A stretch of DNA of 64,000 nucleotides. Origin: Bolinopsis microptera (lineage: Eukaryota > Ctenophora > Tentaculata > Lobata > Bolinopsidae). The DNA is taken from NCBI RefSeq assembly GCF_026151205.1, contig NC_087082.1:8874901-8938900 (forward strand), given 5' to 3'. The position numbers were made by a program, and so were the translations under genes. The notes below the pieces were generated by a model. It had not been told where the DNA came from and made no database searches. It worked only from the letters and a program-made list of their open reading frames with translations. Below, piece by piece: positions 1 to 60,919 of this stretch (positions within the stretch are counted from its first letter, which is position 1; each line of letters begins with the position of its first letter).

Positions 1-1709
1 TTAATGAAAATACTGGACGTGTTTGCTCTAGGCAGGTAGTCATAAAAACTAGGAAGATTGTTAATAGTTAGTTCTCCAATTTCATTATATGCCCCGTTTA
101 AATTAGACGCTAGAGAAACAAAATACTTATTAAATTCATTGGCTATTACTCTACGATTGGTTATCTTCTCATTGTTTATAGTAAACAGTGGTTTTATTTG
201 CCGTTTCTGTTTGCCCCGTATTTGATTAATCAGTTCCCATGTCTTCTTACTATTACCGTTTGTGTCTGCAAATTTTCCCATGAAATACTTAGTTTGAACA
301 TCTTTGCGATCTTTTTTAACCATCCTTCTATAATCCTTATAAGTTTTGTATCTAGAACGTTTTTCACAACATTTCAAGCATTGACATGTTCCACCTTTAT
401 AATCAGTTTCACCGAGTTTACATTTTGTCTTTCTAACTTTAGCCCAATTGTCATAGAGTTGGTGCTGATGCTTGATTTTGGCTATAAGCCCAGGTGTGAT
501 CCATGGATTATTTTGTGTAGTTCTTTTGGAGGACTTAGGGGTTGCCAACTTACACGTTTTATCGATACTACTTTTGAAAACATCATGAAATACCGTGAAG
601 TTGTCAATTACTTTATTCTCTAATTCATGTTCCAAGTCCTTTACAAAAGAGGTAACATTAGACTTACAGTAGTCGTAATATTGTTTATATTTTAGGTTAC
701 TCTTAGTGGATCCCATACTCTTTTCAAATATTTGAAAGACTGGTGAGTGGTGGGATATACGATCAGTAAGTGTGCCTGAGGCTATTATACTCTCTACATC
801 GTTAGTTATAATATTGTCAATACACGATACTTTACAACCTGGCTTCTCATGAGTTGGCAGAGATATTAGGGGAAAAAATCCTCTACTGAACAGGACTTCC
901 TCATAACGTTTTACAATCGCATTATCCTTATTATGTAGATCAATGTTGAAATCACCTGCCAGGTAACTGCATTTCGGCAAATTATCGAGAATTGCTGAGA
1001 GTTCTAATAATGCAACATTTACATCACCACTTGGAGGGCGATACACTACACCAACAGTGACCGGAGTATTCTTGCTGCTTATCGTAACAAATAGAGTTTC
1101 TAGGTTTTCAGATATATGGGACAAATTGCCATTTACTGTAGCACTGAGGGTATCACATACATAAAGAGCGACTCCAGTGCCTTTTCTTTTATCTTGCAAA
1201 GTGTTTTGGTAGAAACTATTGTATCCAGTCAGTTGGTAAAGGTCACTTAATTCGGGGCCTTCATTTGTTTCTGCTAAAGCAATGATCGAAAATTTCATAT
1301 ATCTCTGTAGTTCTATTGCCAGAGTATCAAAGTTAGATTTATTACCATCGATATTTTGAAATAATAATGATGAGTACTCGTTCATTTGGTTGCAAAATGT
1401 TTTATTAAATTCTTTAACACTATATGGGTTACAGTTATTGAGTAATCGGTTGATGTTTACAAGTGTTTCATCAATGTCAGTACTATTATTTTCAGAGTCA
1501 GTATCTTCATATATAAACGGATTGTAACGAGTACTTGCTAAGTGTACACAGTTAGGGCAGTAAAAATCTTCATATATTTTGTTTGTACTGGATTTAGTAT
1601 AGCATTTATGGTGCATAGCACAGTCACACCTACAACATTCAGCAATGAATTGGCCAATGGAAATGAATTTTGTACAGACAGGGCATACCTCTTTGGTCAA
1701 TTTATTCAT
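1..1709 (-). CDS. LINE ORF2, N-terminal part: PHD-like finger plus AP endonuclease (partial)
   Basis: The ATG at 1709-1707 overlaps the ORF1 stop as ATGA. The frame then stays open for about 569 codons to the window edge. It begins with a C4HC3 PHD-like finger: a CPVC pair, a CCRC pair, HHKC, then CPNC. It continues into an endonuclease/exonuclease/phosphatase domain with motifs LAETNEG, GTGVALYV, VVYRPPSG, LAGDFNID, CIDNIITN and SHHSPVF. In LINEs this domain nicks the target DNA to prime reverse transcription. The Glu, the GDFN Asp/Asn, the IDN and the final His all appear intact. The linker that normally leads to the reverse transcriptase starts near position 500 and runs left; the reverse transcriptase itself is outside the window. 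The start/stop overlap suggests ORF2 is made by termination-reinitiation. Confidence 0.9.
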   Translation of the reverse strand, partial: MNKLTKEVCPVCTKFISIGQFIAECCRCDCAMHHKCYTKSSTNKIYEDFYCPNCVHLASTRYNPFIYEDTDSENNSTDIDETLVNINRLLNNCNPYSVKEFNKTFCNQMNEYSSLLFQNIDGNKSNFDTLAIELQRYMKFSIIALAETNEGPELSDLYQLTGYNSFYQNTLQDKRKGTGVALYVCDTLSATVNGNLSHISENLETLFVTISSKNTPVTVGVVYRPPSGDVNVALLELSAILDNLPKCSYLAGDFNIDLHNKDNAIVKRYEEVLFSRGFFPLISLPTHEKPGCKVSCIDNIITNDVESIIASGTLTDRISHHSPVFQIFEKSMGSTKSNLKYKQYYDYCKSNVTSFVKDLEHELENKVIDNFTVFHDVFKSSIDKTCKLATPKSSKRTTQNNPWITPGLIAKIKHQHQLYDNWAKVRKTKCKLGETDYKGGTCQCLKCCEKRSRYKTYKDYRRMVKKDRKDVQTKYFMGKFADTNGNSKKTWELINQIRGKQKRQIKPLFTINNEKITNRRVIANEFNKYFVSLASNLNGAYNEIGELTINNLPSFYDYLPRANTSSIFI

Positions 1710-3961
1710 GGGTACGGTACGTAACCTTCCCCATGTTGAGTCGCAGCAGCAGCAGGAGAGGAACCACCCATCGTCTGGGAGTATAAGCGATTGTCAACTT
1801 TATCCGATCTCTTCTTCCTTCTATCAGTCCCTCCATTCATCCTTAAAAGTATTGTATTACGTATAAGAACCCCAAGTTTTGCTGTACCACTCCAATTGAG
1901 GTGTAAATAGTCCGGTCTCTGGTTTCGTCCAATGTTCCTAGAGAATTGCTGGCTTAGGAGCCCAGCCTCATCACAGAACATGTCAAAACCAGGTACCAAA
2001 GTCACACCAAAGTTGGAATGGAGCAGCTCCTTAAAAATTAATTCATTATAATGTGCAACTTTACGATTTAGCTCAACGAGTTTGGTTGGCAGCAGCGGAC
2101 ACACAAATATATTTGCTTTGGGGTTAAGCGCTTGGATCATTTCTACTTTCTGAACAAATGGTTTAAAAACATTGTTCTTTATATCAGCGGTATTTTTGAT
2201 CTCAGGTTTCCTGATATCATTTATACCACACATCAAGAGAACATTCCTGTATCCACATGAAACTGTAGGATTTATATCCCCCACTACCGGAGCAAAATAC
2301 TGTTTTCCGGGGAGCCACTGCCCAAATGATTTTTTGGGGTCCAGTCCGAATTTGAGACCACCAGTATGCGAGTCTCCGATGATACATGTAGAGTTCCTGT
2401 TTCTAAAGCTAACTGAACGAAAAGTTAGGCTGTATCTCACCCCACCAGTTATTGCCCCATCCTCGATACAGTGGCTGTAGAACTCTTGGCTGCGTCGAGT
2501 CATGCGATACATGGATCTTGGCACACATGTATGGTCATGAGCCATATGATCCGTCTTCTTATCAAAGAATTTGATGTTGCACTGGCCTCCAATAGAAACA
2601 GTGAAAATTTCGGATTCAGGGTGGATGGTAGTTTCATCATCCGAGTGTTTCGGTAGGGAGCCATCCTCTTTGAAGCGATTGATCAGCAGGCTATTGATCT
2701 TCGGTTTTTCACCACTACAGAATGCACCATTGATTTTGTCCACTAGATTGGAGAAGCTAGTTGAAGCTAGTTGGCCATTGGATGACTTGGAGCCATTATA
2801 CTTGTATGGTTCTCCCAAAGAATACACAGCACGAGCTCCCTCCACAACAAAATCCTCGTCAAGTGATTGGCAGGCAAGGAGGAGAGTTTCCTGCTCTTCT
2901 GTGGTAATAAACTCTTCTATAGCGCCTACAACTGGTTCTTCTTTTGATTGGAGATGCTCATTAGCTATTAGGTCTGGGCCAGAGGCAAGTGAAGAACTGG
3001 TAATTTGGACGTTTAAATGGTCAGAAGAAGCCAAAGAATTTCGCTCAAGAGTGTTCAAAGACTGTCTAATGGCTGTTAGCTCCTGATTCGTCTCCAGAGA
3101 CTGCTTGGAATTTAGCTCCTGGAGATTCTTCTCTATTTTTTCCATGAGATCGTTGGTCTTGGAGGAAGATTGAGCACTTACTTGAGGAGTAGAAAAGTCC
3201 TGCAGTTGCTTGTTCAACACTTTAATCTGTTCTGTTAGGCCACTATCAGACTCAGAAACCTTTCCGAGTGAAGAGTCAACTGAAGTTTTCAGCTGCTTTA
3301 GATCTCCTTCCATCACTTCAACCCATGCTGGAGCAGTGCCCTTGTCACTTACCAGTAGGTGCTTGATATGGAGGTCAAGGTTCTGGATGGCAGCAATGCT
3401 GTCGTTTAGACTGTCAAAGTCAACCTTTGCAAGCTTTTCACCAAAAGCTGTGATGGTATTAAGCTTCTCTGTGGCAATAGCTGTCTCACACTGACTGTTA
3501 GATTTTTGAAGTGTCAGAGTGTTCCTACACACATAACACACATCTTCAGCAGTTTCGAATGTGGGGATTGGTGAAACCAAACAAAAAGGGCAGTGCCAAT
3601 TGGTCATGCTGTTGACATTTTTCTGGTTGAGTCCATTCATAGTTAGACAGTCTATGTGCCAATATTGCTTGCACTTTACACAGTCAATCTTCCATGACGA
3701 TATTGACTTACTACATGGACATTTCGTCTTGTCCCTGTGTGAACTGTCAAACTTTGGGGGTGTTACATCACTGTCTACAACAATAGTTTCACAAGATACA
3801 TCCTTTCCCTTCGCCTCTGGTCCTGGAGTGTTGTTCTTGATTCGGGACTTTGCCTTTTTGTCCGCAGGGGAAGGAATCCGAGAGTTATTGGTGATAGATG
3901 AGGCTCTCTTGTTACTATAATAAGCTATAAATATCTTAATATATAAACTATACAGTGCTAA
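1706..3961 (-). CDS. LINE ORF1: PHD finger, coiled coil, AlkB dioxygenase, SGNH esterase
   Basis: The first ATG is at 3640 (644 codons), but the same frame is open to 3961, and the upstream codons supply most of a C4HC3 PHD finger (CPC, CVKC, HIDC, then HCPFC just after the ATG). The real start therefore lies above 3640; an AG acceptor-like site near 3915 is one option. Residues below count from that ATG. About 50-230 are coiled-coil-like and low in hydrophobic core. About 240-412 match AlkB: YSLGEPYKYNG, then HSD (H332, D334), the distal His H390 and the R402-x5-R408 pair that binds 2-oxoglutarate. About 418-600 are an SGNH hydrolase: GDSH (S424), GIND (N474, D475) and DYLH (D577, H580). All expected catalytic residues are present. 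The C-terminal tail is short and basic, followed by Gly/Ala-rich sequence. By inference it binds element RNA; the AlkB part could demethylate it, and the esterase target is unknown. Confidence 0.88.
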   Translation of the reverse strand, partial: LALYSLYIKIFIAYYSNKRASSITNNSRIPSPADKKAKSRIKNNTPGPEAKGKDVSCETIVVDSDVTPPKFDSSHRDKTKCPCSKSISSWKIDCVKCKQYWHIDCLTMNGLNQKNVNSMTNWHCPFCLVSPIPTFETAEDVCYVCRNTLTLQKSNSQCETAIATEKLNTITAFGEKLAKVDFDSLNDSIAAIQNLDLHIKHLLVSDKGTAPAWVEVMEGDLKQLKTSVDSSLGKVSESDSGLTEQIKVLNKQLQDFSTPQVSAQSSSKTNDLMEKIEKNLQELNSKQSLETNQELTAIRQSLNTLERNSLASSDHLNVQITSSSLASGPDLIANEHLQSKEEPVVGAIEEFITTEEQETLLLACQSLDEDFVVEGARAVYSLGEPYKYNGSKSSNGQLASTSFSNLVDKINGAFCSGEKPKINSLLINRFKEDGSLPKHSDDETTIHPESEIFTVSIGGQCNIKFFDKKTDHMAHDHTCVPRSMYRMTRRSQEFYSHCIEDGAITGGVRYSLTFRSVSFRNRNSTCIIGDSHTGGLKFGLDPKKSFGQWLPGKQYFAPVVGDINPTVSCGYRNVLLMCGINDIRKPEIKNTADIKNNVFKPFVQKVEMIQALNPKANIFVCPLLPTKLVELNRKVAHYNELIFKELLHSNFGVTLVPGFDMFCDEAGLLSQQFSRNIGRNQRPDYLHLNWSGTAKLGVLIRNTILLRMNGGTDRRKKRSDKVDNRLYSQTMGGSSPAAAATQHGEGYVPYP

Positions 3962-50458: not shown

Positions 50459-52617
50459 CTATTGTAGGGGGGGGTCCACGTTAAAAAAGTTAAATTCTAA
50501 GATCGAGATTTTGGAATTTAACATTAATTACTTTAACTTTTTTAACTTTTTTAACAAAAATTAAAAATCAGATTTTGGCTGACTAATCGGTTCAAATTTT
50601 AACATAATTACCCAAATTAAACTCAATTATGAGTGTTGACCTTTAGTACTAGTAGTACCTCGCTCTTGCAATTGTTTTCTGTAGTTGTAACTGATTTGAT
50701 AACTCTACAAAAAAAAACATTGTATCTATATATACACATAATTGTATAATTTACTAATATAATCATTCATATAATACGAAAAAAGAATATGGCTTGGCGG
50801 TGTAAGTGCGGAAGGGTTATGGAAAGTCTCACATACGACAGATGTTTACGTTGCAATTTAGCGAAGGCATCAGGAGAGTCGCTCATTCGCTTGAAGGGTT
50901 TCCTGTAGCTGTAATCCCTGTACCCGAACCATCTACTGAGGACACATCATCAGGTATTGATACTCCGGAGCTTCCTCCAGCTGTAATCCCTGTACCCGAA
51001 CCATCTACTGAGGACGTATCAGTTGTTGTCAACACTTCAAAAAGGGCTGCTGATTCATCAAAACCTAGAACTCAATATGATTCTGAAGACGAATCATCTG
51101 CTGATGTTATCACTACTGCGATAATAACAAGCAACTCATTCAAGAGGAGAGCTGTCCCTACTTTTAGGATTCCAAAGATTAAGAAACCGACGGTGCAAAG
51201 CAAATTGACGATTATGGATAAATCTTCATCGACGGGTCTGAAGAAGAAGGAGCATTTGCGGGCTAACACTGATAATTTAACCACGAGAACTCCCACAGTA
51301 GACAATTCTAAATTCACAATTGGACGACCAATTGATGTTGATAAGATAAACAGCAGCAAGAAAGTGTTAAATTCAAAGAAGGAAACAGCACTTAACAAGT
51401 TGTCTACACGACTCATTGAAGGTGGAACTGCAATCAAGAATGAGAATCAGCAGGGAAATCGGGACAAATTGAACTCTAGAAATACTCCTCCAACACGTTC
51501 TCTGAGTACAATTAGACTGCCAGTACACGATGGAAAAGGTGATAAGCCTGTGATTGCGAAGAAAGAGACTGTTTTAAACAAACTTTCTACAAGATTCGCC
51601 ACAGAAGATGGCACTACCACGCCGAAAAACAAACTTTGTAAGGAGAAATCCGGAAGAAAGGCGCTCGATGCCGAAACGATTAAAGATAGATGCACGGTCA
51701 GGACGAATTTTGAAATTGAATTGTGGAAGTGTAACGACATGGTACCTGGCCAGATTATCAAGGCCAAAGCAATTCAACGGGTTTTATTCAGACTTGGGTG
51801 TTCTTTAGAGGAAGCTTGCCTACAGAATATATACAATATTTTCGGAGGAAAAAAATCCAGGTGTCCTAACGTTATCAATTGTGCGATCCATGGAGCGGGT
51901 ATTAAGACTAAAATCTAAGAAAACACGTCGTCGGATGATGAGTATTTTACCTACCCCGGAATGTCAGAATGGAACAAAGAGTACAGATGATGTGGCATGC
52001 AGAATACTGTGCATCAGCCATGCCCAATAGCTAGAGTGAAACCAATCTTGTCATCGGAAACTATTCAATCTATTCCAAAAATACAAGGAAAGCTGTCTAC
52101 TAATTATGTCCATGCAAATGTGACAGGGAAGCATTCTTTTGCCTTTATTTCCCACATTGCGGTAATGCTAGAGTTAACTAGATCACTAGGTCCAAGCAAT
52201 TTGAAAAGTTGTGACGATGAGGAACTTGTGCATAGATCGTTGAATGAAATAAAAAATAATCAGGATTCAAAGAAATATCTAAATGTAATTGATAGCGCGG
52301 AAGATATTGAAAATGAAGTCCCTGAAGTCTTAAAGCAGGTAAAGAACCTATTGGGGTGTGTGAAAGTGAAGCAACCAGATCGAAGTTCTGTTTCAAAACA
52401 TAGATGCTCTCATAATCTAAAGAGCCATTTAGCCAGTTATATAATATAATAACATCTATAAACAAAAGAGCACCTAAAGAGGCTCAGCAAAGTGCTGGCC
52501 TATTTACGCTTACGAAGACTCATTCGTTCAATATGTCTCAAAGTAAATAAACTCCTCCATCCTCCATCCTACTCTATCTCTTGCTAAGTTCACTAAGTTG
52601 GTAAAATCATCTTCATT

Positions 52618-53867
52618 TTAAAAATAAATTTGTCTCTTAAATAGGTCCTTTTTCACAATAATATCATACAAATTAGTCCTGTGTCTACCCACTCGTCCCT
52701 TTAGTGTTTGACATCCTAGTGTAGCAAATAACAGAGACTGGTAGGCAGGTGTGTCGTTGTCACTGCGTAGAACATGACCTAGCATTGTCCACCGTGCCTT
52801 TTCCACTCTCTCGGAAAGGGGCCTGGTCTGGGTACGAGCGTAGAGGGCCTTGTTAGATATTGAGCTAGGCCAATATATGTGTAGGATGCGCTTGAGGTGC
52901 TTCCTCTGAAGAACATCTACAGACTCTAGAACATGCTGAGGTACGGCCCAGCAGCAGCAGTTGTACAGGAGCACTGATACTACTAGTGAGTCGTAGAGTT
53001 TGATCTTTCTCTTCTCAGTTATCTGACTCCTCTCTGATCCCTGGCACCACAGCTTGTCAAATGACCAGAAGGCAGAGTTAGCTTTATTTATTCTATTAGT
53101 AACATCCTGCTCTGATCCAAGCTTAGTACCAAGAAGCGTCTCGTTTCTCCACTCCTCTTTTCCTCTTAGTTCATTATCCCACTCGTCACAGGCACCAACT
53201 TCTTCTAAATACACTCTGGTAAACTTTTTCTTTGTGTCATTGACAAAGAGACTCCATTCACTGAGAATATTCTTGGAGATCTGAAAGATATCCTGTAACT
53301 CCTCCATATCTTCACCAATCTCCTCTAAATCGTCTGAATAGCCGGACTCAAGAGGCATGTGGTTATCGGCTATCGGAGGGTTGGGTCTTGAGGGGAGGAC
53401 TGCTCTTATGTGCACTACAGCTCCAGCTAGATTGAGGGTAAACAATTTACCAGCTGTGCTGTCTCCTTGGGAGGCTCCTATGTTGAAAGAGAACATCTCT
53501 GAGTCAGTAGAACACACTCTGACTACTAGAGTGGTGTTAGCCATGAGGTATTGTACAAGCCTCAGGTCGTCTCTGGAGCATCCTGCAGCTTCTAGTAGTC
53601 TGATTGTTGTACCTCTGCGGATGGTATTGAAGGCAGCTGACATGTCGATACTCACTTTGTTCCATTCAAACTCCTTCTTCATTACTACAGATATGAGCAT
53701 GCTCTGTGCCCAAACTAGGTCGGCACAGCTCCTGCCAGCTTTGTAGGCAGCTTGGAACGGTCCGGTGAAGTTGTCCACAGCTCTCTCTATTCTGTTTAGC
53801 ACTATCAGTGACAGGATCTTTCTAGAAACATTCAGCAGGGTCAATTGCAATGGTCGTATCGACTTAA

Positions 53868-59668: not shown

Positions 59669-60919
59669 TCATGCCTTCTCTGTCCAGTAATCTACGAGCT
59701 CGGAGATCAGAAAGAATAACTCTTGTATAGTTGGTTGCAAAATGAGAATAGCTATGCCACATTTAGCGAGCCCAACATCAAGTGCCAAAAACCTAACAAA
59801 AATGTCACACTTTGTGCTAATGTGGGTTTGCTCGATTCCATATATGTCAAAATCAAATGAGAAGCAATTCATTGACCATGTATGTACTGCTACATACATG
59901 GTCAGCACAATCAAATCAAACAAGATTTCTATCGAGCAAGATATCATTGTTTTCTTGATACTCTTAGTTTGAGACTTTCCAACGTTTTTGTTGTTGTTCT
60001 TCCAATAGCCAATCAGGAAAATCATGCTCAGGAAAAGTGAGCCGACGTAGCCAAATAAAGTGAGTGACGTCAGGGCTATCTGCCAGCTGGCAGCCCGAGC
60101 CTCTATTCCACTACAGGACTCCTGAAATTTAAACAGCAGAATCATGGACCAACCGATGAAAGTCGCCAACATAGCTACTGTTTGGCCTAGAGATATTCGA
60201 AGTAACCACCTACTGAAGAATTTCCTATGCTCTCGAAAGTAGAATGGTCGGTAGAGCATGATGTTTTGAAAGGCATAAATGATAACGGTGAAGGCCTTCA
60301 AACTCACCATAAAAACCTTCAAAAGCATAGTGACAAGGCTACTTATCACGATCAAAAGCAGTTTAACCGAGAATTTAGGTTGAAGAGAAACGTAACGGGA
60401 ATACTCAGGGACGATGGTCAATACTCCAATAATGATGCACCATATGGAGAAGCATACCCTTATCACTTTAACGACCCCTTTCTGAGAAGAAGCCCTCATT
60501 TTGACTATAATTCCTACCAGTCCGATCAGTAGAGTTACAGCTCCTTCTATGTAATAATAATGGGCGGTATCATGTCCTTCATCCATAATATTGTATCCAG
60601 AAGTGGTCCCGTTGTAGTCAAAAGTGTTGGAGTCATTAGCTGCTTTTTCCCAAAGAATCTTAAATGACTCATCAATTAATAATTGTTCCCTAAGATCCTT
60701 ATGTATAAAGAGCAGCTCTATATCAACATTAAGATCTTTATCAGAGAAGAGTTTCTGACTCATCCCGTTTTCAAGGAGCTCTTTAGTAATGTCCCATTCA
60801 GCGTAAACTTTATCTCCCTCGTGCACGATAACTTCAAAGCTGTCAGGTATCTTTTTGATGTCAAAGTCCGAGCCATTTGTTTTAGAGAGTAACTCCTCGA
60901 ACCACTTCAACGGGGCCAT
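59669..60919 (-). CDS. Single-exon seven-helix membrane protein, receptor-like, family unknown
   Basis: 416 aa, uninterrupted. Residues 1-120 are hydrophilic with NGS, NDS and NGT glycosylation sites and no clear signal peptide. Seven hydrophobic spans follow at about 121-142, 151-171, 184-222, 241-264, 278-305, 325-347 and 374-397, then a short acidic tail. The topology (long N-terminus, seven helices, basic loops such as RPFYFREHRKFFSRW after helix 3 and KNNNKNVGKSQTKSIKK after helix 5) resembles a G-protein-coupled receptor. Class A hallmarks are missing: helix 7 has LQPTIQEL where NPxxY is expected and there is no DRY. It could be a fast-evolving chemosensory-type receptor or another polytopic protein. 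The ATG at 60919 is the first in frame. An unspliced frame of this length argues for a real gene. Confidence 0.7.
   Translation of the reverse strand: MAPLKWFEELLSKTNGSDFDIKKIPDSFEVIVHEGDKVYAEWDITKELLENGMSQKLFSDKDLNVDIELLFIHKDLREQLLIDESFKILWEKAANDSNTFDYNGTTSGYNIMDEGHDTAHYYYIEGAVTLLIGLVGIIVKMRASSQKGVVKVIRVCFSIWCIIIGVLTIVPEYSRYVSLQPKFSVKLLLIVISSLVTMLLKVFMVSLKAFTVIIYAFQNIMLYRPFYFREHRKFFSRWLLRISLGQTVAMLATFIGWSMILLFKFQESCSGIEARAASWQIALTSLTLFGYVGSLFLSMIFLIGYWKNNNKNVGKSQTKSIKKTMISCSIEILFDLIVLTMYVAVHTWSMNCFSFDFDIYGIEQTHISTKCDIFVRFLALDVGLAKCGIAILILQPTIQELFFLISELVDYWTEKA

Follow-up and report, generated by a model that had tools for sequence, protein, structure and literature searches.

AlkB dioxygenase domains in the esterase-type ORF1 proteins of a group of ctenophore LINEs

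The left end of an analysed stretch of the ctenophore Bolinopsis microptera genome (the window, 64,000 nucleotides at C11:8874901-8938900 of the 264.65 Mb assembly that was searched) is occupied by a long interspersed nuclear element (LINE). Its first open reading frame (ORF1) raises the question of whether an AlkB dioxygenase is a genuine part of a retrotransposon protein and, if so, what it does there. The original prediction was that this ORF1 fuses an intact AlkB domain to an SGNH esterase and a PHD finger. Both enzymes are present: in a group of bicistronic LINEs the ORF1 protein (ORF1p) is arranged in the order (PHD-like finger), coiled coil, AlkB dioxygenase, SGNH esterase. The parts of ORF1 in the window are as follows.

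1706..3916, minus strand: ORF1 frame left in the window copy, a 742-amino-acid protein minus its first six codons
3581..3727, minus strand: PHD-like zinc finger (cysteines; Pfam 13.1 bits, below the cut-off)
3032..3535, minus strand: coiled-coil region (predicted long helices; model residues 128-295)
2408..2926, minus strand: AlkB 2OG-Fe(II) dioxygenase domain (Pfam, motifs, predicted fold, profile)
2645-2647 (H), 2639-2641 (D), 2471-2473 (distal H), 2435-2437 (R) and 2417-2419 (R), minus strand: AlkB residues (motif positions)
1862..2398, minus strand: SGNH esterase domain with GDSH, GIND and DYLH (Pfam, motifs, predicted fold)

The Pfam profile 2OG-FeII_Oxy_2 matched the window ORF1 at E 3.6e-12, its 47.4 bits exceeding the cut-off of 31.2, and the three other families scanned scored 50.9, 56.5 and 59.9 bits, all above that cut-off. 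The HxD...H iron triad and the R-x5-R of the window copy lie where they had been predicted, at residues 332-334 (HSD), 390 (distal His) and 402 and 408 when counted from the ATG at 3640. A structure model, for which the window protein was aligned with 67 of its 120 relatives, was confident for both the AlkB and the SGNH folds. Chance resemblance to AlkB was ruled out by the Pfam score, the predicted fold and the invariance of the residues.

The three SGNH blocks were also found as predicted and, with the triad and fold lying C-terminal to a coiled coil, ORF1 is of the esterase type (type IV). The predicted fusion is therefore borne out by an AlkB score over the cut-off and by both enzyme folds, whereas in the window copy the esterase (22.4 bits, cut-off 32.9) and the PHD finger (cut-off 24) fall short by Pfam. 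Copies L025 and L023 came closer (27.3 and 27.6 bits for the esterase, 19.6 and 23.8 for PHD) and were still under the cut-offs, and neither domain was matched up to E 0.1 in L028. Because its Pfam score stays under the cut-off, 23.8 bits being the best value, the finger is termed PHD-like here. An extra C-x2-C pair lies beside it at 3527-3538, and a custom PHD-type cysteine pattern fitted 87 of 121 sequences, many of the other 34 being partial.

All six catalytic positions of AlkB (HxDxE, distal H, R-x5-R) are kept in 116 of the 120 relatives; P0049 and P0051 are partial or fused, P0094 has one Arg changed and P0111 is a Gypsy fusion. A second, diverged ORF1 lineage keeps all six in 62 of 65 proteins, P0298 and P0305 being partial and P0302 having a changed distal His. 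The ratio of replacement to silent substitution rates (dN/dS) was obtained from ORF1 of 17 of 20 copies (L012, L013 and L020 were excluded) in chosen pairs, in sets of nine and six with four in common. The three pairs with the most changes gave AlkB ratios of 0.06-0.16, namely 0.12 (0.06-0.20) for L025-L026, 0.16 (0.08-0.29) for L010-L018 and 0.06 (0.03-0.12) for L023-L024. L010-L017 gave 0.11 (0-0.45), and silent changes were saturated in the AlkB codons of the other four of the first nine pairs. The esterase ratio was 0.08-0.18 in four pairs, two pairs had zero replacement changes in the esterase and L010-L018 was saturated there; the second reading frame (ORF2) gave 0.06-0.09 in the four pairs where the ratio was defined. 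As L010-L018 and L025-L026 pair mosaic copies, their values describe exchanged segments, and the test of constraint still stands.

At the level of sequence, then, purifying selection evidently acts on the AlkB of ORF1, whose iron ligands are preserved. Selection on the activity had been argued previously from one young copy, which is insufficient; it is the comparison among copies that upholds it. The kept catalytic positions and the dN/dS values also rule out decay of the AlkB part, although the loss of the start codon in the window copy, described below, is real.

The distribution of AlkB was examined across copies, families and hosts. The 120 relatives came from a protein search in which the AlkB-esterase region was the query, and 115 of them have an AlkB Pfam label. 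Among those with a host name, ten are from Mnemiopsis leidyi, two are from Bolinopsis and one (P0116) is labelled as a bacterial metagenome-assembled genome, which is taken as contamination. The window ORF1 also has further copies in its own genome, where 69 scored matches (of 984 first-look candidates) fall into identity groups of about 94-100, 77-86 and 42-52%, and 64 of the 69 lack an internal stop. Pfam AlkB had at least 151 matches over the genome (150 of 587 first-look candidates were scored), mostly in long frames of recurring lengths, and the top few of these may be host genes. Four further AlkB loci included one with an AlkB-esterase frame followed by an endonuclease frame (L037), one with AlkB-esterase (L040) and two close kin in which the AlkB frame runs past the end of the retrieved segment (L038 and L039). 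Searched with L037, the second lineage comprised 65 relatives, 63 with an AlkB label and six named Mnemiopsis. No relatives were confirmed in viral or prokaryote contigs, and there is therefore no ORF2 context from other hosts.

Crossing genome-wide esterase-only and AlkB-only searches by place put AlkB directly upstream of the matching esterase in 118 of 150 esterase matches and, among the matches listed, in 101 of the 103 whose frame is at least 440 amino acids long; family copies lacking AlkB, which would have made the fusion an isolated event, were thus not the pattern found. The 32 esterase matches without a listed AlkB upstream comprise 30 in frames below 440 amino acids and two in longer frames, both pieces of the window family (family A), one of which lies within a 1474-amino-acid frame on the same contig as the Gypsy fusion P0111. 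The AlkB side of the cross is the best 150 scored matches, and an unpaired esterase is therefore no proof of AlkB absence; equally, AlkB-less sister LINEs were sought through a matching esterase alone, and more distant AlkB-less LINEs may exist. Judged from these frames, AlkB is evidently a regular part of ORF1 in this LINE group. A midpoint-rooted tree of 256 AlkB domains (261 of 313 matches were long enough, and five duplicates were dropped) fell into three groups supported at 0.75-0.85. In one, 12 short proteins and P0306 join the window lineage; in another, L040 joins the L037 lineage; the third unites the other short AlkBs with L038 and L039. The tree leaves single versus multiple capture undecided.

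The domains have also moved among families. Compared segment by segment, L010 and L018 share 96-100% identity as far as codon 281, then 83-93% until about codon 501 and 64-77% through the esterase, with 64-82% in ORF2, while L025 and L026 differ most (68-84% identity) at codons 221-600, between ORF1 flanks of 91-100%. Because identity shifts so sharply inside ORF1, these pairs point to AlkB-esterase stretches passing between LINE families as a cassette. One sharp identity border lies close to the AlkB/esterase junction.

The remainder of the element was delimited by comparison with longer copies.

1..3916, minus strand: 5'-truncated LINE copy of family A (alignment to L010 and L011), running about 2.9 kb beyond the left edge of the window
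3917..3961, minus strand: flanking DNA, open by chance in the ORF1 frame (comparison with longer copies)
1706..1709, minus strand: overlap of the ORF2 start and the ORF1 stop, ATGA (reading frames)
3..1709, minus strand: first 569 amino acids of ORF2, with a zinc-finger-like start and an endonuclease/exonuclease/phosphatase-like domain

L010, L011 and L014 encode an ORF1 of 742 amino acids that begins MGDNNKS, and an ORF2 of 1122 amino acids. The window copy is 99.8% identical to L011 and begins 135 bases later, at window position 3916, which is codon 7. The minus-strand frame is open from 3961 to the stop at 1706-1708, and the feature had been predicted to reach 3961; its last 45 positions are flank. 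The ATG at 3640, proposed as the start, falls inside the PHD-like finger and would halve it. The window copy is accordingly nearly identical to the longer copies and its catalytic residues are intact, but as an element it is not intact, its first six codons and start being lost. The 3' end lies near C11:8872003, the window itself beginning at C11:8874901. Measured between the aligned 5' end of L011 and the 3' end of short AAATTTGTTTTACT-type repeats, the element is about 6.95 kb long; that 3' end is common to the four copies inspected, and about 30 extra bases 5' of the L011 end are common to L010, L013, L015 and L016. L009, L012 and L014 begin at differing points, as 5'-truncated LINE copies do, and the window copy had no clear target-site duplication.

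Full-length ORF2 is 1122 amino acids from its ATG, with the reverse transcriptase beyond the window; it scored 129.8 and 126.3 bits against RVT_1, over the cut-off, and has the FADD motif. Exo_endo_phos scored 20.1-21.7 bits, below its cut-off of 24.5, and 25.7 bits, above it, in L037. With an endonuclease and reverse transcriptase in ORF2, 5'-truncated copies and a 3' end of the non-long-terminal-repeat (non-LTR) kind, the element is a LINE of the apurinic/apyrimidinic endonuclease (APE) type. The N-terminal zinc-finger-like motif of ORF2 resembles that reported for L2 subgroup 5 (PMC4120745).

Esterase-type and PHD-type ORF1 proteins are already known; the AlkB-bearing ORF1 appears to be a new type. 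Esterase-type ORF1p, such as that of zebrafish ZfL2-1 (PMC3905857; PMC4120745), likewise has an SGNH esterase with a conserved active site after a coiled coil, and belongs to a LINE whose ORF2 has endonuclease and reverse transcriptase; unlike it, the ctenophore ORF1 includes a PHD-like finger, and AlkB separates its coil from its esterase. A 2014 survey of 448 Jockey-superfamily elements restricted the esterase type to two exclusively vertebrate groups (PMC4120745), and a 2013 paper placed it also in RTE, RTEX and Penelope-like elements (PMC3905857). The PHD-bearing CR1 and L2 ORF1 types (PMC4120745) share the N-terminal PHD-like finger and, in L2 subgroup 5, the finger at the start of ORF2; unlike them, the ctenophore ORF1 continues with AlkB and esterase, and its finger is below the Pfam cut-off. 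The nearest precedent is an orchid Ty3/Gypsy element with an ALKBH5-like domain (PMC9289625), which is also a retrotransposon-encoded AlkB-family domain with intact ligands. That domain, however, is a separate reading frame in one recent lineage of a plant LTR element and is kin to plant N6-methyladenine (m6A) demethylases, whereas the ctenophore AlkB is fused within ORF1 of an animal non-LTR element in many diverged families.

AlkB domains also occur in plant RNA virus replicases and Picornavirales polyproteins, which are likewise selfish RNA-copying elements; those are viral proteins without a LINE context. In Foldseek, two Picornavirales sp. proteins superposed at 1.6 and 1.8 A root-mean-square deviation over 149 columns, and grapevine virus replicases more loosely. 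Human ALKBH3 and ALKBH2 have the fold and the HxDxE motif in common with the ctenophore domain but are stand-alone host enzymes. No AlkB domain in a LINE was found in an open-access literature search made partly without AlkB as a term and mostly at the level of listings. Comparative AlkB surveys reportedly mention mobile elements.

The contest between host and retroelement over RNA methylation is an open question, and here an animal LINE group appears to hold a demethylase in its core machinery, which offers a direct route to asking which modified bases matter in LINE copying. Esterase-type ORF1 proteins have no known RNA-binding domain, and the finding may be relevant to how they contact nucleic acid. 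The families form a natural AlkB series differing at a substrate-contact residue, which may serve RNA sequencing tools.

The predicted AlkB fold is nearest, by Z, to ALKBH3 with single-stranded DNA and to ALKBH2, with ALKBH5 and E. coli AlkB lower; identity to human ALKBH3 and ALKBH2 is 18-20% over the aligned part. A profile of 12 LINE AlkBs, compared with solved structures, matched ALKBH2 and ALKBH3 first, followed by ALKBH8, E. coli AlkB and C. elegans NMAD-1, and none of its 35 matches up to E 0.01 is a chain named ALKBH5. This proximity of model and profile would favour, though not strongly, 1-methyladenine (m1A) and 3-methylcytosine (m3C) over m6A as substrates. As m3C blocks reverse transcription and AlkB relieves the block (PMC7969016), clearance of m1A and m3C is the function we favour, and the chances seem to us evenly balanced that the ORF1p AlkB strips these methyls from element RNA or complementary DNA (cDNA) and so aids reverse transcription. 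ORF1p would coat the element RNA, and its AlkB, using Fe(II) and 2-oxoglutarate, would remove Watson-Crick-face methyls of A and C from that RNA or from single-stranded cDNA; lesions that halt the reverse transcriptase would thus be cleared, and target-primed reverse transcription would yield longer copies. The esterase would contact membrane or lipid, as proposed for other esterase-type ORF1 proteins, and the PHD-like finger would perhaps take part in targeting. Somewhat less assured is the broader proposal of a LINE group with a standing 'template cleaner' in ORF1 for methyls that block reverse transcription, whose families swap the cassette and let the substrate-contact residue change around a preserved catalytic core, as in an arms race or substrate tuning.

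Several observations weigh against a constrained enzyme that clears m1A and m3C. The AlkB ratio of L010-L016 is 0.27 with an interval (0.05-1.33) that includes 1, and L018-L021 and L025-L027 each have two replacement changes and no silent ones. The search behind the 120 relatives selects on AlkB-esterase similarity, so that AlkB-less relatives are under-sampled. ALKBH3 and ALKBH2 lead ALKBH6 by less than one Z unit and ALKBH5 by less than three, ALKBH6 is the top Foldseek match by E-value, and NMAD-1, a DNA N6-methyladenine demethylase, also matches the profile (9.5e-5). The presumed 2-oxoglutarate-contact Asn is N in only 27 of the 65 proteins of the second lineage (H 20, T 12), and Phe takes the place of the partner Tyr in the window copy (Y 94 and F 22 among the 120 relatives); both sites were assigned by our own equivalence to ALKBH5 contacts named in PMC9289625.

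The residue after HxD also varies among the 120 relatives (N 46, D 41, R 20, S 7, others 5, gap 1). By alignment to ALKBH2 and a presumed equivalence, we take this to be the position of E. coli D135. Because this D135-like residue varies, families may differ in AlkB substrate.

The strongest competitor to clearance of m1A and m3C, and in our view an unlikely one, is that AlkB erases host regulatory marks, m6A on element RNA or N6-methyladenine (6mA) on DNA, and so evades silencing or decay. The orchid Gypsy domain demethylates m6A in single-stranded RNA in vitro (PMC9289625); changes at D135 of E. coli AlkB shift its substrate, and D135I permits action on m6A (PMC7968990), while the D135-like position varies here; the NMAD-1 profile match is a further point in favour. 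However, Ile was seen at that position in neither tally (120 and 65 relatives), and the fold and profile are closer to ALKBH2 and ALKBH3 than to ALKBH5, a name missing from the profile matches. Less probable again is an action on the host DNA where the element inserts, AlkB directly repairing or demethylating the nicked, single-stranded target under the guidance of the PHD-like finger: both ORF1 and the start of ORF2 have such fingers, and ALKBH3 and ALKBH2, the nearest folds, were solved with DNA, but L037 and L040 keep AlkB with no PHD match up to E 0.01. We regard as improbable, more so than action at the insertion site, a role chiefly in nucleic-acid binding with catalysis a by-product, since 116 of 120 and 62 of 65 proteins retain six catalytic positions that a purely binding module would not require. 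A one-off capture of a host AlkB, or a single-copy assembly artefact, is rejected by the many copies on many contigs in several families, by the same kind of protein in Mnemiopsis and by AlkB beside the esterase in nearly all the long frames listed.

Large elements of quite another kind may carry AlkB as well: matches lie in stop-free frames of 3321-3388 amino acids, for example C10:16875843-16876241, C3:14441692-14442090 and C12:8338315-8338713 (label G000), and others in stop-free frames of 2225-3226 amino acids elsewhere in the genome. A family A esterase piece terminates a long Gypsy-like gene model (P0111; C11:15169011-15169553), apparently through insertion or fusion. Within the window, the open frames at 50806-51918 (plus strand, 370 amino acids) and 59669-60919 (minus strand, 416 amino acids) had no Pfam match up to E 0.01, and a second reverse-transcriptase fragment lies at 52618-53850 (minus strand; RVT_1, 49.7 bits).

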